Below, piece after piece: positions 28,517 through 36,468 of a stretch of DNA of 45,045 nt. The notes under the pieces are model-generated. The model was not told the DNA's origin. It searched no databases and was given only the letters and a program-made list of their open reading frames with translations. Every line of letters starts with the position of its first letter. Positions within the stretch are counted from its first letter, which is position 1. The DNA is from Thauera phenolivorans (lineage in GTDB: Bacteria > Pseudomonadota > Gammaproteobacteria > Burkholderiales > Rhodocyclaceae). The position numbers were made by a program, and so were the translations under genes. Location: contig NZ_MBFM01000003.1 in NCBI RefSeq assembly GCF_001696715.1, positions 110,856 to 155,900 on the forward strand, in the 5' to 3' direction.

Positions 28517-29347
28517 TCAGGCGCTCTTGCGGCGACGTGAGAGACCCAGACCCAGCAGGCCGAGTCCAGCCAGCGCGATGGTACCCGGCTCGGGGACCTC
28601 GCTGAAGCGATACTGACCGTTGTTGCTGAGGATGAAGTCTCCCGGCGGGGTGTTGGTACCCGCCGCGACACCACCAAACTCCTGCGTGTACAGTTCGCCC
28701 ATGATTTCAGTTATGACGTTAGGCGACGGATTAGCAACTTGCGAAGCGTTGGTGGTGACGAAGCCGAACAGTAGCTCCGATCCCACCATGGTCGACAGGT
28801 CGATACCGTCCTCATTGAAGAAATACCCCGCGGCAAGGTTCGTCGCCTTGAAGGTCAGCGAAATTTCACCGTTCGGGAGACCGGCGGATCCGATCTGCCC
28901 GGTACCTTCCGTCAGCAGGAAATCGGCGATCAGCGTGCCGTCGTCGGCGCCGAAGATGCCGGTGGTCGAACCGAAATTGGCAGTGGTGTCCGAGTACATC
29001 TGGAAGGAGCCCGCATTGAACGCGAGTGACCCACCCAGCTGACCCGAGCCGGTTCCCGAGAAGATCGCGGTGATCTGCGCCTCGCTCGGCATCACGTTCG
29101 TGCCGTCAGCGGTAGGAACAACGTATGCGCCAGCGTTCTCGAAGGTGAAGTTCGTGGCATCAGAGAAGGTGTTCTCGACGTAGCTGGCCCCGACCATGTC
29201 CAAAAACTCACTTACGAGAATAGTGCCACCCGCAGCAGCACCATTGGTGTCAAAGGTCCAGTTGCTGAGGAAGGCTGCGTTGGCGGCACCCGAGGCGAAG
29301 GCCGCACCAACCGCACCGGCGAGAACGAGTTTCTTCAAGACTTTCAT
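28517..29347 (-). CDS. PEP-CTERM exported protein, PepA-like (floc/matrix)
   Basis: A 276-residue secreted protein. The signal peptide covers residues 1-24 (MKVLKKL start, ANA cleavage site). The body is Gly/Ala/Thr/Asn-rich and beta-prone without cysteines. The last 26 residues are a classical PEP-CTERM sorting tag: VPEPGT, a hydrophobic helix, then SRRRKSA. Exosortase would cleave it at the outer layer of the cell. The mature part (FLSNWTFDTNG, GASYVENTF) resembles the flocculation-associated PepA proteins of Zoogloea-like sludge bacteria as I recall them; that finer call is moderate. It is transcribed alone from a sigma-54 promoter, and its lower GC sets it apart from neighbouring genes. 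Confidence 0.9.
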   Translation of the reverse strand: MKVLKKLVLAGAVGAAFASGAANAAFLSNWTFDTNGAAAGGTILVSEFLDMVGASYVENTFSDATNFTFENAGAYVVPTADGTNVMPSEAQITAIFSGTGSGQLGGSLAFNAGSFQMYSDTTANFGSTTGIFGADDGTLIADFLLTEGTGQIGSAGLPNGEISLTFKATNLAAGYFFNEDGIDLSTMVGSELLFGFVTTNASQVANPSPNVITEIMGELYTQEFGGVAAGTNTPPGDFILSNNGQYRFSEVPEPGTIALAGLGLLGLGLSRRRKSA

Positions 29348-29650: not shown

Positions 29651-31291
29651 ATGCCGAGGCCGCTTTTCGAACGCCTCGCCCCGCCGCTAAGCTATCCACC
29701 GCTATTGGTGGTGCCGAGATCCGAGGAGAACACCTTGCAGCAAGGAACAAACGTCACAGGTCGTGCAAATGCGGTGGTCGAGCGCGTGGCCGTCACCTCC
29801 AGGGAGGATGTCCTCGGACTGGTCGAGCGCGCACGCCAGAAGAACACGCCCTTGTATCCTGTCTCCACCGGCTTGAACTGGGGTTATGGCTCCTGGTCCC
29901 CCGTCGTACCGGGATGCACCTTGCTGGATATGAGCGGCATGAACCGCATCCTCAATGCAGACGACATCTCAGTTGACAACCCGGTGGCCATCGTCGAGCC
30001 CGGCGTGACGCAGGGCCAGCTTTCCGACTTCCTTCAGGAGCACTGCCCCGCCCTGACCTTCAACGTCACCGGCGCCGGTCGTGACACCAGCATCATCGGC
30101 AACGCCCTCGACCGCGGCGTCGGCTACTTCGGGCCGCGCAAGGACGACCTCTTCGGCCTGGAGGTCGTCACCGGCACCGGCGAGATCGTGCGCACCGGCT
30201 TCAGGCGCCTGGGGGACGAGTCCCCGCTCGCCCACAGCCACCCCTTCGGCCTCGGCCCGATGCTCGACGGTCTCTTCTTCCAGAGCAACTTCGGCATCGT
30301 CACCAGCGCCTGCTTCCGCCTGCGCCCGCGCCGCCCGCGCGAGGTCGCGGTGTCGCTGGCGCTGCGTCGCGACGAGGATTTGCCGGCCTTCATCGACGCA
30401 CTGGCACGCCTCAAGCGCGAGGGCCTGCTGACCTCGGTAACGCACATCGGCAACCGTGCCCGCACGGTATCCACGCTGAGCTACGGCGTCACCCGCTACC
30501 TCGAGGACGAGTGCGGCTTCGACCCCACTGCCGCAGCCGCCGAGGCGGACCGGGCGATGAAGGTGGTCGCCCCGCACGAATGGACCAGCCTGGCCTCGGT
30601 TTCCGGGAATCCGGGACAGGTCAGGGCGGCGATTCGCGAAATCCGCCAGCGGACCCGCAGGATCGCCCGCCTCATGGTCATCACCGAGCGCCTGCTCGAC
30701 GTCGGCTACGCCGTGACCCACCGCCTTCGCTCGATTCCCTTCATGCGCGCCAACGCTGCCGCAATCGCGGCCACGCGACCGCTGCATCGCCTGGCGCTCG
30801 GCGTGCCGACCGACATTCCCATCCAGAACCTGCTGTGGAAATTCGGCCACCCGAACGACCGCGCAGTGGAGCTCGACGCCTCGCGTTGCGGACTGCTGTT
30901 CATCAGCCCCGCCCTGCCCCTCGACGGCCGACTCGCCTGCGAGGTGGTCAACGGCCTGCAGGAGGTTGCAGCGCGTCACGGCCACATCCTCTACATGACG
31001 CTCAACATCGAAACCGAAACTTCTCTGGTCGCGGTGATCAACCTGCTGTTCGACCGTAGCGTGCCCGAGGAGATCGAACGCGCACACCGCTGTGCCGACG
31101 ATCTTCTCGATTACATGCGCGGGCGGGGACTCGAGCCCTACCGCGCGCGGGCCGACATGATGGAGAAGATCGTGGCGGCCGACCCGGAGTACTGGCGCCT
31201 GATCCACAAGCTGAAAACCGTCTTCGACCCTGACAATGTCATCGCGCCGGGGCGCTACGGCCTTGCATCCGGCATGGATAAGGAGCGATGA
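29651..31291 (+). CDS. VAO/PCMH-type FAD-dependent oxidoreductase
   Basis: A 546-residue flavoprotein. The PCMH-type FAD domain occupies about residues 30-230, with YPVSTGLNWGYGS, IVEPGVTQGQL and GNALDRGVGYFGPRKDD. The C-terminal substrate/cap domain ends with FDPDNVIAPGRYG, the closing motif seen in p-cresol methylhydroxylase and vanillyl-alcohol oxidase relatives. Substrate is unknown. No signal peptide is seen. It lies 158 bp upstream of the exosortase-associated acyltransferase on the same strand and next to the PEP-CTERM gene. The start at ATG 29651 is a choice; an in-frame ATG at 29552 would add 33 residues of unlike character. Confidence 0.8.
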   Translation: MPRPLFERLAPPLSYPPLLVVPRSEENTLQQGTNVTGRANAVVERVAVTSREDVLGLVERARQKNTPLYPVSTGLNWGYGSWSPVVPGCTLLDMSGMNRILNADDISVDNPVAIVEPGVTQGQLSDFLQEHCPALTFNVTGAGRDTSIIGNALDRGVGYFGPRKDDLFGLEVVTGTGEIVRTGFRRLGDESPLAHSHPFGLGPMLDGLFFQSNFGIVTSACFRLRPRRPREVAVSLALRRDEDLPAFIDALARLKREGLLTSVTHIGNRARTVSTLSYGVTRYLEDECGFDPTAAAAEADRAMKVVAPHEWTSLASVSGNPGQVRAAIREIRQRTRRIARLMVITERLLDVGYAVTHRLRSIPFMRANAAAIAATRPLHRLALGVPTDIPIQNLLWKFGHPNDRAVELDASRCGLLFISPALPLDGRLACEVVNGLQEVAARHGHILYMTLNIETETSLVAVINLLFDRSVPEEIERAHRCADDLLDYMRGRGLEPYRARADMMEKIVAADPEYWRLIHKLKTVFDPDNVIAPGRYGLASGMDKER

Positions 31292-31449: not shown

Positions 31450-32226
31450 ATGTCAGAACACTCAACAGCCCGGACCATGCAGACCTCCGCACGTCGCGAC
31501 CTCAGCCAGGGCTTCAACAACTATTTCCGCATCGATCGGGTTGTGGAAGGCCCCTTGCTCGACGAAGTGTTCCATGTGCGTCACGAGGTCTATTGCGAGG
31601 ATCTCGGCTTCGAACCCGAGCGACCGGATCGCCGCGAGGTGGATCCCTACGACGCCCACAGCGTGCATTGCCTGTTGCGTACGGCCGCCGCCCCGCATAC
31701 ACGGGTTGGCTGTACCCGGATCGTGCTGACGGATCCCGCCGACCCATACGCGCCCCTGCCTTTCGAGCGCTCCTGCGCCGCGACGCTCGACCGTTCGATC
31801 GTCGACCCGGCAAGGCTGCCGCGCGGAAGCATCGCCGAGATCTCCCGCCTCGCCGTCCGCGCCCAATACCGCCGCCGCAAGGGCGAAGAACACACCGCCG
31901 TCGCGATTCAGGAACAGGACTTCACCGCCTTCGGCGCGCAACAGCGTTTCCCCTTCATCCCCACCAGCCTGCTGCTGGGCGCGGTCGCACTCGCCGAGCA
32001 CAACGATGTCGAAACCATATTCGTCCTGACCGAGCCGAGGCTCGCGGCGCACTTCTCACACCTTGGCGTGGAGGTCCGGCAGATCGGCGCCGCGATCTCT
32101 CATCGGGGCACCCGCGTGCCCTCGGTGATGCATATCGAAGAGATCATCCGCAACATGCGCAGCCTGATCAGGCCCCTCTGGGAGATCGTCCGCCAGCAGA
32201 TCCGGGAGGGCTCCGGTCCGGTCTGA
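31450..32226 (+). CDS. PEP-CTERM/exosortase-associated acyltransferase with LuxI-like core
   Basis: A 258-residue GNAT-fold protein that fits the putative acyltransferase family found only with PEP-CTERM/exosortase systems. Its core follows the pattern of N-acyl-homoserine-lactone synthases: VRHEVY (R44), the acidic trio E63-x-D65-x2-D68 in REVDPYD, VGCTRIV (R90), PFE (F105) and EISRLAV (E130, R133). Those are the positions essential for LuxI-type acyl transfer from acyl carrier protein. The chemistry is therefore probably acylation of a small polar molecule or matrix component. The ATG at 31450 is preferred; the Met at residue 10 is an alternative. Confidence 0.85.
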   Translation: MSEHSTARTMQTSARRDLSQGFNNYFRIDRVVEGPLLDEVFHVRHEVYCEDLGFEPERPDRREVDPYDAHSVHCLLRTAAAPHTRVGCTRIVLTDPADPYAPLPFERSCAATLDRSIVDPARLPRGSIAEISRLAVRAQYRRRKGEEHTAVAIQEQDFTAFGAQQRFPFIPTSLLLGAVALAEHNDVETIFVLTEPRLAAHFSHLGVEVRQIGAAISHRGTRVPSVMHIEEIIRNMRSLIRPLWEIVRQQIREGSGPV

Positions 32227-32330: not shown

Positions 32331-34223
32331 TCAGCTCTTCAACACGTTCCTGATCTGCTCCAGCGTGCTGGCGTCGTCGATGGTGGCGACGTCGCCCGCG
32401 TCGCGTCCTTCGGCCATGGCCTGGATCGAGCGGCGAAGCATCTTGCCGGAGCGGGTCTTGGGCAGGGCGGTGACGAAATGCACCCGGCTCGGGCGGGCGA
32501 TGGCGCCGAGCTGGTCGTCGACCGTCTTCATGACCTCCTTCTCGAGCGCGGCGCGCTTCTCGGCGGTGTCGGTGCGGCTGGCGTCCTTCACCACGGCGAA
32601 GGCCATCGGCATCTGGCCCTTGAGCTCGTCCTGCACGCCGACCACCGCGACTTCGGCGATCGCCGGATGTGCCTGCACCGCCTCCTCGATCTCGCGCGTG
32701 CCGAGCCGGTGGCCGGCGACGTTGATGACGTCGTCCATGCGGCCGAGGATGGTGTGGTAGCCCTCCTCGTCCTTGATGCCCCAGTCGGAGGACGAATACA
32801 CCACCGGGTTGGTGAACAGGCTGAAGTAGGTGGATACGAAGCGCTCGTCCTGGCCCCAGACGGTGCTCAGGCAGCCCGGCGGCAGCGGCGGCACGACGCC
32901 GACGATGCCCTTCTCGTTGGGACCGCATTCGCTGCCGTCCTCGCGGAAGATGCGCAGGTCGTAGCCATACACCGGGAAGCTCGGCGAGCCGTACTTGACC
33001 GGGGTGTCCTCGACGCCGCGCACCGCGGCCATCATCGGCCAGCCGGTCTCGGTCTGCCAGTAGTTGTCGATCACCGGCACCTTGAGCGCACTCATGATCC
33101 ACTCGTGTGTCGGCTGGTCGAGCGGCTCGCCGGCGAGGAAGAGGTGGCGCAGCGACGACAGGTCGTACTTGCTGAGGTAGGCGGGGTCCTGCTTCTTCAG
33201 CACGCGGGCGGCGGTCGGCGCGGAGAACATCACGCTGACCTTGTACTTCTCGACGATCTGCCACCAGATGCCCGCGTCGGGGCGCAGCGGCGTGCCTTCG
33301 TACATGATCGTGGCCATGCCGCCAATCAGCGGGCCGTAGATGATGTAGCTGTGGCCGACCACCCAGCCGATGTCGGAGGTGCAGAAGAAGGTCTCGCCCG
33401 GCTTGCCCATGAAGATGAGCGGGATCGACGAGGCGAGTGCGACACAGTAGCCGCCGACATCGCGCTGCACGCCCTTCGGCTTGCCGGTGGTGCCCGAGGT
33501 GTAGAGGATGTAGCTCGGCTCGGAGGACTCCAGCCAGGTGACCGGGACGCGCGCGTCGATGTGCTTCTCGCGCAGCGTGGCATAGTCGAGGTCACGGCCC
33601 TCGACGCGGGGGAAATCCTTGTCCAGGCCGCGATCGACGATGAGGACGCGCGCGGGTGGGAATTCGGCCAGCTTGCAGGCCTCGTCCACCAGGTGCTTGT
33701 ACGGCACCGGCTTGCCATTGCGCATGCCCGCATCGGCGCACACCATCAGCACCGGCTTGGCGTCGTCGATGCGGGTCGCCAGCGAGTGCGCGGCGAAGCC
33801 GCCGAACACCACCGAGTGGATCGCACCGATGCGGGCGCAGGCGAGCATCGCGAAGCAGGCCTCGGGAATCATCGGCATGTAGATCAGGACGCGGTCGCCC
33901 TTCTTGACGCCGAACTCCTGGTAGATCGCCGCCATGCGCTCGACCTCGCGCTGAAGCTCCGCGAAGGTGTAGATCCGCTCCTCGTCGGTCTCGGTCGACA
34001 GGTAGATCAGCGCGCGATCGTCCGGGCGCTCGGCGGCGTGGCGATCGACCGCGTTGTAGCAGAGGTTGGTCTCGCCGCCCTTGAACCACTTGACGAAGGG
34101 AGGGTGCGAGAAATCGCAGATCTGCTCCGGCTGCTTGTTCCAGTGCACCAGCTGCGCCTGCTCGGCCCAGAAGGCGTCGCGATCCTCGATCGAGCGACGG
34201 TGGAATTCCTTGTACGTGGTCAT
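32331..34223 (-). CDS. prpE: Propionyl-CoA synthetase
   Basis: A 630-residue acyl-adenylate ligase that activates propionate to propionyl-CoA. YTSGTTGKPKGVQRDVGGY is the AMP-binding loop in the exact form that distinguishes PrpE from acetyl-CoA synthetase. SDIGWVVGHSYI, NYWQTETGWP and DWGIKDEEGYH follow, and the C-terminal LPKTRSGKMLRR holds the catalytic lysine that is commonly controlled by acetylation. The start MTTYKEFHRRS matches the family. It is the third gene of acuI - response regulator - prpE on the minus strand. Confidence 0.95.
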   Translation of the reverse strand: MTTYKEFHRRSIEDRDAFWAEQAQLVHWNKQPEQICDFSHPPFVKWFKGGETNLCYNAVDRHAAERPDDRALIYLSTETDEERIYTFAELQREVERMAAIYQEFGVKKGDRVLIYMPMIPEACFAMLACARIGAIHSVVFGGFAAHSLATRIDDAKPVLMVCADAGMRNGKPVPYKHLVDEACKLAEFPPARVLIVDRGLDKDFPRVEGRDLDYATLREKHIDARVPVTWLESSEPSYILYTSGTTGKPKGVQRDVGGYCVALASSIPLIFMGKPGETFFCTSDIGWVVGHSYIIYGPLIGGMATIMYEGTPLRPDAGIWWQIVEKYKVSVMFSAPTAARVLKKQDPAYLSKYDLSSLRHLFLAGEPLDQPTHEWIMSALKVPVIDNYWQTETGWPMMAAVRGVEDTPVKYGSPSFPVYGYDLRIFREDGSECGPNEKGIVGVVPPLPPGCLSTVWGQDERFVSTYFSLFTNPVVYSSSDWGIKDEEGYHTILGRMDDVINVAGHRLGTREIEEAVQAHPAIAEVAVVGVQDELKGQMPMAFAVVKDASRTDTAEKRAALEKEVMKTVDDQLGAIARPSRVHFVTALPKTRSGKMLRRSIQAMAEGRDAGDVATIDDASTLEQIRNVLKS

Positions 34224-34298
34224 AGCCCTCCTCTCCCTTTCAGATTCCCTCAATCCACGATGAAGGCGACAGCGCGGGGCGTCCCCGCCCGGTCGCCG

Positions 34299-35480
34299 CT
34301 ATGGCATCGGGTGCACGGCTCCGCCGTTCACCCCGGCGACTCCCGCCTCCTTGTCGATCTGTTTGAGTCTGCTCAACGGGATGTCGCAGCCAAGCCGCGA
34401 TTCTATCAAGTCGAGCAGCGGCGCGAGGGCCGCGATCACCGCCGGCAGCCGCGCGGCGACCGCCTCCGTGTCGCCACGTTGCAACTGCCTGAGCACCGCG
34501 TCGATGCTGGTGAGCTCACGCCTCGCGCTCGCCAGCGAAACCTCGCTGACCTCGCCCCGATCGGCGAACACCCGGTTTCCGCCCGCCGCCCGGCCGTTCT
34601 CGGCGCGCCCCACCGCGACGCCGATCAGCTCGCTGACCGAGGCGAGGCCATCCACCGCGGAATTGGCGACACCGATGGTGACGGTGATGCCGATCCGCTC
34701 GCCGCGATAGCTCAGCACCAGCTTCTCCAGGGCCTGCTGCAGGCGCAGGGCGAAGGCACAGCTCGCCGCGAGTTCGCTGCCGTGGGCGAGCAGGACGAAC
34801 TGCGCCGGCGACAGCTGGGCCACCGAATCCTCGCTCCGCACCCGGGAGGCGAGAATCTCGGAGAGCTTGCGTCCCACCAGTCCGGCGACCTGCGCCCCGT
34901 GCCGCTCCACGAGTTCGCGAAAGCGATCGATCTCGACCACGAGCACCGACAGGTTCGCCCCATGGCGGCGGGCGTAGGCGAGGTCCTGCTCGGCGCGCCA
35001 CTTGAGGTAGGACTCGTTCACCAGGCCGCTCACCGGATCGATCGCGCTCTGGCGGGCGAGCGCGGCGCGGCTGGCCTCGAGCTCGCGCTCGGTCTGCGCC
35101 AGGCGCAGCAGCGACTCGAGCGCCGACAGCAGCTCGGCGCTGCCCGAGCCCTTGGTGATGAAGCCGTTGGCGCCGAGCGCGGCCGCACGCTCGCGCGCGG
35201 AATCGTCTTCCTCACCGGAAATGATCAGCACCGGCAGGCTGCTGATCCGCGCCACCCGCGCGCTGCGGATGCGCTCGAGCAGGCCGTAGCCGTCGAGCCT
35301 CGGCATGCCGATGTCGGTGAGCACGAGCTGCACCGCCGGGTCGACCAGCAGCGCCTCCCACGCCGCCTCACCGTCGCCCTCCTCCCTCACCTCGAAGCGG
35401 CCGCGGATGTGCTTGATGATCGACGAGCGCACCATGCGCGAGTCGTCGACCACGAGGATCCGCGGCAGCGCCTCAGTCAT
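34299..35480 (-). CDS. Response regulator with degenerate (non-catalytic) GGDEF domain
   Basis: A 393-residue protein. The N-terminal receiver (1-125) is intact: D12/D13, phosphoacceptor D56 in LVLTDIGMP, S89, and K110 in GFITKG. A coiled-coil linker leads into a GGDEF-fold domain (about 145-300) that begins DPVSGLVNESYL and has VVEIDRFRE. However, the signature loop reads LSPAQF (223-228) where active diguanylate cyclases have GGDEF. It therefore cannot make c-di-GMP and may act as a binding or partner domain. A further helical region (about 310-393) follows. Its ATG overlaps the acuI stop by eight bases, so translation is coupled. Confidence 0.88.
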   Translation of the reverse strand: MTEALPRILVVDDSRMVRSSIIKHIRGRFEVREEGDGEAAWEALLVDPAVQLVLTDIGMPRLDGYGLLERIRSARVARISSLPVLIISGEEDDSARERAAALGANGFITKGSGSAELLSALESLLRLAQTERELEASRAALARQSAIDPVSGLVNESYLKWRAEQDLAYARRHGANLSVLVVEIDRFRELVERHGAQVAGLVGRKLSEILASRVRSEDSVAQLSPAQFVLLAHGSELAASCAFALRLQQALEKLVLSYRGERIGITVTIGVANSAVDGLASVSELIGVAVGRAENGRAAGGNRVFADRGEVSEVSLASARRELTSIDAVLRQLQRGDTEAVAARLPAVIAALAPLLDLIESRLGCDIPLSRLKQIDKEAGVAGVNGGAVHPMP

Positions 35481-36468
35481 GGATCCGCACCACCGTGCGG
35501 CCCTTCGCCTTGCCGGCGATGAAGGCGTCGAACGCGGCGGGCAGCTCGTCGAAGGCGATGGTGCGGGTGACTTCGGCCAGGTGGCGCGGCTTGAGGTCGG
35601 TGGCGAGCCGGTCCCACACGCGCTGCCGGGTGGGAAAGCCCATGTAGCCCGAATCGACGCCGAGCAGGCTGACGCCGCGCAGGATGAAGGGGAACACCGT
35701 GGTGTTGATGTTGAAGCTGGCGGCATTGCCGATGCTCGCCACCGTGCCCGCCTGCTTCATCGTCGCCAGCACCCAGTGCAGGATCTGACCGCCGACGTTG
35801 TCGACCGCGCCCGCCCACTGCGCCGCTTCGAGCGGGCGCACCTTGTCGAAATCGATCGAGGCGCGCAGCTTGATCTCGGCCGCGCCGAGCATCTTCAGGT
35901 AGTCGCTCTCGGCCTCCTTGCCGGTCAGCGCGACCACGTGGTAGCCGAGGCGCGCGAGCATGTCGATTGCCAGGCCGCCGACGCCGCCGGTGGCGCCGGT
36001 GACGATCACCGGACCGTTGGCGGGCGCGAGGCCGTTGTCCTCCATCCGTACGATGCCGAGCGCCGCGGTGAAGCCGGCGGTGCCGAGCGCCATCGCCTCG
36101 AAGAGGTCGAGCCCCGCGGGCAGCGGCACCACCCAGCCTGCCGGCACGCGAGCGTACTCCGCATAGCCGCCGTGGTGGGCGACGCCGATGTCGAAGCTGG
36201 TGACGATGACCTTGTCGCCCGGCTTGAAGCGCGGATCTGCGCTCTCCACCACCTCGCCCGACAGGTCGATGCCGCCCACGCAGGGGAAGCGCCGGATGAT
36301 CTTGCCCGCGCCGGTGGCGGCGAGCGCATCCTTGTAGTTGATGCTCGAGTAATGGACCCGGATCAGCACCTCGCCGGCGTCGAGCTCCGCGGACGTCATC
36401 GTCGTCATGGCGCTGACGACCTTGCGGTCGTCGCCCTGGTTGATCACGAAGGCCTTGAACGGGTTCAT
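35473..36468 (-). CDS. acuI: NADPH-dependent acrylyl-CoA reductase, AcuI/YhdH family
   Basis: A 331-residue medium-chain reductase without the structural-zinc lobe. The N-terminal GroES-like part has HYSSINYKDALA and GGIDLSGEVV; the Rossmann part has VTGATGGVGGLA for NADPH. It reduces acryloyl-CoA to propionyl-CoA, detoxifying a reactive intermediate. That links it to prpE two genes downstream, since both feed propionyl-CoA. It starts MNPFKAFVINQGDD, as in the family. Confidence 0.93.
   Translation of the reverse strand: MNPFKAFVINQGDDRKVVSAMTTMTSAELDAGEVLIRVHYSSINYKDALAATGAGKIIRRFPCVGGIDLSGEVVESADPRFKPGDKVIVTSFDIGVAHHGGYAEYARVPAGWVVPLPAGLDLFEAMALGTAGFTAALGIVRMEDNGLAPANGPVIVTGATGGVGGLAIDMLARLGYHVVALTGKEAESDYLKMLGAAEIKLRASIDFDKVRPLEAAQWAGAVDNVGGQILHWVLATMKQAGTVASIGNAASFNINTTVFPFILRGVSLLGVDSGYMGFPTRQRVWDRLATDLKPRHLAEVTRTIAFDELPAAFDAFIAGKAKGRTVVRIHD

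Follow-up and report, generated by a model that had tools for sequence, protein, structure and literature searches.

The title of a 2011 paper by Craig, Cherry and Brady (J Bacteriol 193:5707), cited in PMC4897644, PMC7293339 and PMC5539150, connects N-acyl amino acid synthases (NAS) with the PEP-CTERM/exosortase system. For the exosortase-associated family TIGR03694, PMC9762135 describes an annotated member from Neisseria whose expression in E. coli led to N-acyl ornithines and lysines. PMC4897644 presents Nas354, a FeeM-like enzyme, as a maker of N-acyl tyrosine whose phenotypes are abolished by replacement of Glu103. Tailoring of such products by oxidation has also been described: in the N-acyl dehydrotyrosine pathways (thalassotalic acids, kyonggic acids and stieleriacines; NasY, a nitroreductase and ThiF), a nitroreductase is proposed as the desaturase in PMC12479983.

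The locus considered here lies in a 45,045-nucleotide stretch of Thauera phenolivorans DNA (hereafter the window) and comprises the following genes:

28517..29347, minus strand: PepA-type PEP-CTERM protein gene (NF033554, 126.6 bits, cut-off 80; PF07589, 32.2 bits, cut-off 20.7)
29651..31291, plus strand: PCMH/VAO-type 4-phenol oxidoreductase, probable tailoring enzyme (based on FAD_binding_4, the match to 1dii, linkage and active-site columns)
31450..32226, plus strand: TIGR03694 acyltransferase, probable NAS (based on family score, homologue alignment, profile and fold)

The flavoenzyme gene is located upstream of the NAS gene and is co-directional with it; its start is uncertain, the frame being open from 29552, and the PepA-type gene adjoins it in divergent orientation. 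A propionate--CoA ligase gene (32331-34253, minus strand) is convergent with the NAS gene, and two genes downstream of the NAS is that of a response regulator carrying a GGDEF (diguanylate cyclase) domain (34299-35726, minus strand), a possible link to matrix control. The window gene resembles the exosortase-associated NAS (TIGR03694) in family, fold and its exosortase-bearing genome, where one exosortase (246.6 bits) was detected on another contig (C9), but differs in being paired with a PCMH-type flavoenzyme. Similarly, it shares with the N-acyl dehydrotyrosine pathways the combination of a NAS with an oxidizing tailoring enzyme, except that the candidate here is the PCMH-type flavoenzyme and not the nitroreductase proposed in PMC12479983. 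The original prediction held that a quorum-type product tied to exosortase sorting would be new. Given the 2011 title, this novelty does not hold, and much of what was proposed, a synthase of acylated small molecules connected with exosortase, has already been published. The neighboring flavoenzyme, which that prediction did not mention, is the more informative feature. We found no description of a NAS paired with a PCMH/VAO-type enzyme in the article text of open-license PMC papers, and among the matches listed there was no paper that brought N-acyl tyrosine or exosortase together with PCMH/VAO. A review passage on N-acyl amino acids concerns a berberine-bridge-type oxidase of fungi. As far as the open-license PMC literature was searched, therefore, the pair of NAS and 4-phenol oxidoreductase is undescribed, and it recurs in several bacterial phyla.

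The acyltransferase ORF extends from the ATG at 31450 to the stop at 32226 on the plus strand (258 aa), and its true start may be at 31477, because most of the aligned homologues begin ~9 residues later. Its identification as an exosortase-associated acyltransferase was borne out by TIGR03694 (NCBIfam), with 250.6 bits against a cut-off of 111.95. The FeeM-type NAS family PF21926 scored 26.8 bits, 0.2 below its cut-off of 27, and Autoind_synth (PF00765) scored 13.7 bits, below its cut-off of 24. Direct counting placed R44, E63, D65, D68, R90, F105, E130 and R133 where the original prediction had them, and all of these except F105 were invariant in 30/30 homologues, a set picked by a motif script from 31 loci (none from L032 and L039, two from L038). 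F105 was kept in 29/30 TIGR03694 homologues, the exception being L029 with Leu. The likeness to LuxI proved to be above chance, as both the 30-homologue profile and AlphaFold2/Foldseek matched AHL synthases. Against solved structures, the profile found five distinct AHL synthase sequences (E 1.5e-6 to 1.8e-5) and LasI (0.005). With the AlphaFold2 model (mean pLDDT 85.7), the top Foldseek matches were RpaI (7.7e-9), LasI (1.1e-8) and TofI, and the best FeeM chain appeared at rank 15 (3.1e-6). The claim of a full LuxI catalytic set stood only in part: the eight named residues are there, but the Trp of BjaI/RpaI is F54 in our alignment. Besides, LuxI Phe28 would presumably correspond to Y48, so that an invariant LuxI set which we take to include Phe28 and Trp34 is not matched here at Y48 and F54. 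The LuxI-type AHL synthases (LasI, EsaI, RpaI, BjaI, TofI) are thus like the window enzyme in fold and most active-site residues, and unlike it in that the window gene falls under the Autoind_synth cut-off, has Phe for Trp, and belongs to a genome in which no LuxR ligand domain was found at E <= 0.01. The FeeM-type NAS (PF21926; PDB 2g0b; Nas354) share its fold, the aligned position of the catalytic Glu and, in relatives, the same flavoenzyme partner, but the FeeM-type group had no counterpart of D65/D68 in the profile comparison, and the window gene is just under the PF21926 threshold. Taken together with what is in print on its relatives, the acyltransferase is most likely a member of the known exosortase-linked NAS family and would acylate a free amino acid.

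The pairing occurs twice in this genome. The second TIGR03694 gene (C8:585732-586418) lies 1.4 kb from a homologue of the window flavoenzyme (34% identity), and a PEP-CTERM gene of the THxN family separates the two; an IS66-type transposase fragment (L006:10242-10829) adjoins this second locus. A weak third match to TIGR03694, on contig C1, belongs to an OlsB-like protein, which scored 164 bits against an OlsB model with a cut-off of 350. Among 150 relatives, there were 10 flavoenzyme matches of >160 bits, in nine genomes, and 8 of the 10 had a TIGR03694 gene at a distance of no more than 4 kb. The remaining two were in G046, where no TIGR03694 match exceeded the cut-off, and G071, where the TIGR03694 gene was on another contig. 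None of 14 weaker VAO-family matches in these relatives had a TIGR03694 gene so near, and of the 51 relatives in which TIGR03694 occurs, most had no flavoenzyme of this type nearby.

For a wider scan, named genomes were searched with a nine-member flavoenzyme alignment (A2), and the best 80 of 582 confirmed loci were analyzed. TIGR03694- or FeeM-type NAS were present in the flanks of 43 of these 80 loci, as called at E < 1e-15 for both types with an HMM of A1 (TIGR03694-type) and a second HMM built up iteratively from two ORFs in these loci that Pfam had confirmed as FeeM-type (FeeM-type). Pfam placed the FeeM-type members of L048, L052 and L124 over the cut-off and that of L063 (21 bits) under it (27). 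Thirteen further loci of the best 80 of 582 had a third GNAT-like family, at <=250 bp in 12 of them and 1.3 kb in L104, so that a NAS or NAS-like gene was found near the flavoenzyme in 56/80; because L124 and L126 are identical DNA, this corresponds to 55 of 79 distinct loci. The filing of that DNA under two different organisms is a binning error. In L048, L082, L142 and L143, both TIGR03694 and FeeM-type NAS were near one flavoenzyme gene. Two independent single ORFs were fusions of NAS and flavoenzyme, L124:8981-11416 (FeeM 120 bits, FAD_binding_4 83 bits) and L063:9188-11536 (FAD_binding_4 101 bits, with its FeeM match of 21 bits below cut-off). Clustering of the neighbors showed that those recurring beside the flavoenzyme were mainly exosortase/exopolysaccharide-type genes, a PEP-CTERM protein and NAS. 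By comparison, none of the three NAS/NAS-like families was found in 12 control regions holding 14 VAO-family ORFs (0/12), which were drawn from relatives of this genome only and included three shorter ones, L154 (15.5 kb), L155 (4.1 kb) and L156 (3.2 kb). One control flavoenzyme, L152 (= L135), grouped within the NAS-linked clade, where it forms a long branch. In the flavoenzyme tree, built by a quick method from 97/99 rows (L126 and L144 left out) and with several long branches flagged, nine VAO-family rows were set apart with support 100, and a 15-row group (support 100) around the window flavoenzyme had both TIGR03694- and FeeM-type partners.

No NAS or NAS-like gene was seen in 24 of the best 80 of 582 loci, some of which were at contig edges. 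We followed 20 genomes without NAS near the flavoenzyme, representing 18 of these 24 loci (all except L053, L061, L068, L106, L115 and L125) plus G046 and G071. PF21926 was over cut-off elsewhere in 13 of them, four of which also had TIGR03694, and in the other seven neither family was over cut-off anywhere. Rhodocyclus purpureus (L049), which has the closest orthologue among the loci compared, was one of the seven; an ORF with a PEP-CTERM-like tail adjoins its flavoenzyme gene. The third GNAT-like family was found in acidobacterial loci (L076, L079, L083, L087, L088, L090, L093, L098, L104, L109, L111, L117 and L121) and has motifs around 'DGRH' and 'EVGGWA'. These proteins may represent an additional family of NAS, a role that is less secure than any other part of the argument, because the family's profile match to A1 was weak (E 1.7e-4, probability 50), and a Pfam scan of six members gave none over any cut-off.

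The flavoenzyme often co-occurred with exosortase. An exosortase match was found in 43 of 50 flavoenzyme genomes (42 over cut-off), hand-picked for diversity from the best 80 of 582 loci and including many draft or metagenome bins. Among the 150 relatives, exosortase was present in 9/9 genomes with strong flavoenzyme matches versus 83/150 overall, and in 48/51 with TIGR03694 versus 35/99 without, comparisons for which Fisher values ignore kinship among genomes. Also, PEP-CTERM-like tails were detected by regular expression in 47/99 loci (10 of the 99 being outgroup pieces of 2.4-2.6 kb) versus 0/12 control regions.

The window flavoenzyme matched FAD_binding_4 with 75 bits and p-cresol methylhydroxylase (1dii) with E 1.9e-47. 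We aligned its clade to 1dii (87 rows) and found the phenolate-binding residues widely kept, with Y95 in 77 rows, Y473 in 86, R474 in 87 and R512 in 84; the phenolate-binding Tyr, Tyr and Arg are all present in the window enzyme. PCMH H436 and D440 are not kept in the clade and the chemistry may therefore differ. Tyr follows R512 in 87/87 rows. At the column that we take to be that of the FAD-linking His of VAO, there was no His among the residues tallied for 86/87 clade rows. Covalent attachment of FAD is through His in VAO and EUGO and through Tyr in PCMH, the latter being non-homologous. A member with non-covalent FAD is known among 4-phenol oxidoreductases according to PMC7617285, which also describes the chemistry of the group, in which a hydride leaves the side-chain carbon and a p-quinone methide results. 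The VAO equivalents of the phenolate-binding residues, Tyr108, Tyr503 and Arg504, are proposed in PMC5646868 to deprotonate the substrate. Alike in fold family and phenolate-binding Tyr/Tyr/Arg, the known 4-phenol oxidoreductases (p-cresol methylhydroxylase, vanillyl-alcohol oxidase and eugenol oxidase) are nevertheless distinct from this separate NAS-tied clade, which is without PCMH H436/D440 and has Tyr after R512. Judged by these aligned columns, the evidence points to a para-substituted phenol as the probable substrate, with altered chemistry.

N-acyl tyrosine would be the simplest para-substituted phenol that a NAS could supply, and we consider it reasonably probable that tyrosine is acylated by the NAS and oxidized on its side chain by the flavoenzyme; tyrosine as the substrate, the sequence of the two reactions and the nature and function of the product are what we infer. 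The NAS, an acyl-thioester-dependent enzyme with the LuxI/FeeM-like GNAT fold, would first attach a long-chain acyl group to the alpha-amino nitrogen of an amino acid, for which tyrosine is the likeliest candidate. The upstream 4-phenol oxidoreductase would then bind the p-hydroxyphenyl group of this product as the phenolate. Abstraction of a hydride at the benzylic carbon would follow, and the resulting p-quinone methide would yield a dehydro- or beta-hydroxy-tyrosine lipid, an amphiphile that may serve the surface or matrix of exosortase-bearing cells. The presence of a PCMH-type homologue next to both TIGR03694 genes of the genome supports this pathway, as do the recurrent linkage and the two fusions, the exchange of NAS families beside related flavoenzymes, the kept phenolate-binding residues and the co-occurrence with exosortase. 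Counting against it are the seven flavoenzyme genomes with neither NAS family over cut-off, R. purpureus among them, the lack of PCMH H436 and D440, and the nitroreductase of the known NAS-linked desaturation. If correct, the pairing would place a tailoring enzyme of the 4-phenol oxidoreductase family in the exosortase-linked route to N-acyl amino acids, would predict a chemical class, oxidized N-acyl tyrosines, for several phyla, and would add the flavoenzyme clade as a gene family that tracks exosortase. The products of these synthases, and the reason for their association with PEP-CTERM proteins, could be addressed in E. coli using either the two genes or a single fused one. A bolder extension, which we regard as a long shot, is that exosortase has a dedicated lipid branch in which NAS and 4-phenol oxidoreductase make an oxidized N-acyl tyrosine lipid acting in sorting itself. 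If so, this lipid would be, for example, the attachment lipid of PEP-CTERM proteins or a signal licensing export of matrix and PEP-CTERM proteins, and the three NAS/NAS-like families beside the flavoenzyme would be interchangeable suppliers of it.

The two enzymes might instead have separate substrates, the NAS acylating an amino acid other than tyrosine (e.g. ornithine, lysine or phenylalanine) and the flavoenzyme acting on a separate phenol, and be neighbors through a shared exosortase/exopolysaccharide program. Exosortase and exopolysaccharide genes are indeed recurrent neighbors, and the flavoenzyme is not near most TIGR03694 genes of relatives. Pseudoduganella umbonata CECT 7753 (L089), presumably the same species as Massilia umbonata, carries the pair of NAS and flavoenzyme. 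PMC12479983 reports only saturated kyonggic acids from M. umbonata, so either the flavoenzyme was inactive under the culture conditions used, or it gives something other than the 2,3-dehydro compound, or it has another substrate. Also, since the Neisseria enzyme used ornithine and lysine, according to PMC9762135, tyrosine is not given by membership in TIGR03694. However, one substrate shared by NAS and flavoenzyme is suggested by the two fusions and by the partner exchange between NAS families, and we consider separate substrates unlikely.

Two further alternatives concern the acyltransferase itself. That it modifies proteins, for example PEP-CTERM proteins, instead of small molecules might be supposed from the PEP-CTERM genes adjoining both of its copies in the genome and from the PEP-CTERM-like tails found by regular expression in 47/99 loci, but its acyltransferase family matches included no protein-acyltransferase family, and free amino acids are acylated by the TIGR03694 enzyme of PMC9762135 and by FeeM-like Nas354 of PMC4897644; we regard it as highly unlikely. 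A true AHL-type quorum-signal synthase tied to exosortase sorting is more improbable still. The nearest solved structures by profile and fold are AHL synthases and the residue set is conserved; nevertheless, the Autoind_synth score is beneath cut-off, the Trp of AHL synthases is replaced, and a phenol-oxidizing partner is not needed for an AHL. A LuxR-type partner was looked for, and the autoinducer-binding domain PF03472 had no match at E <= 0.01 in the genome; the search of the genome for the LuxI domain likewise gave no match above cut-off. Besides, the OlsB-like acyltransferase of the same genome keeps 6/8 residues (R44, D65, D68, R90, E130 and R133), and the residue set is therefore not diagnostic of quorum-signal synthases. 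On the basis of the LuxI/LuxR domain searches and the OlsB comparison, a quorum-signal synthase was rejected. The acylated small molecule of the original prediction agrees with the LuxI-like GNAT fold, TIGR03694 and the family products in print, but the quorum-type product suggested with it found no support.

Some other genes deserve mention. The OlsB-like ornithine acyltransferase at L007:6580-7338, elsewhere in the genome, is a useful control for the 'LuxI' residue set. FtsX/LolCE-like ABC permease genes, candidate exporters, were placed by clustering close to the flavoenzyme in seven loci (e.g. L138:7904-9163), and one such gene (L006:14476-14904) is beside the second NAS of this genome.
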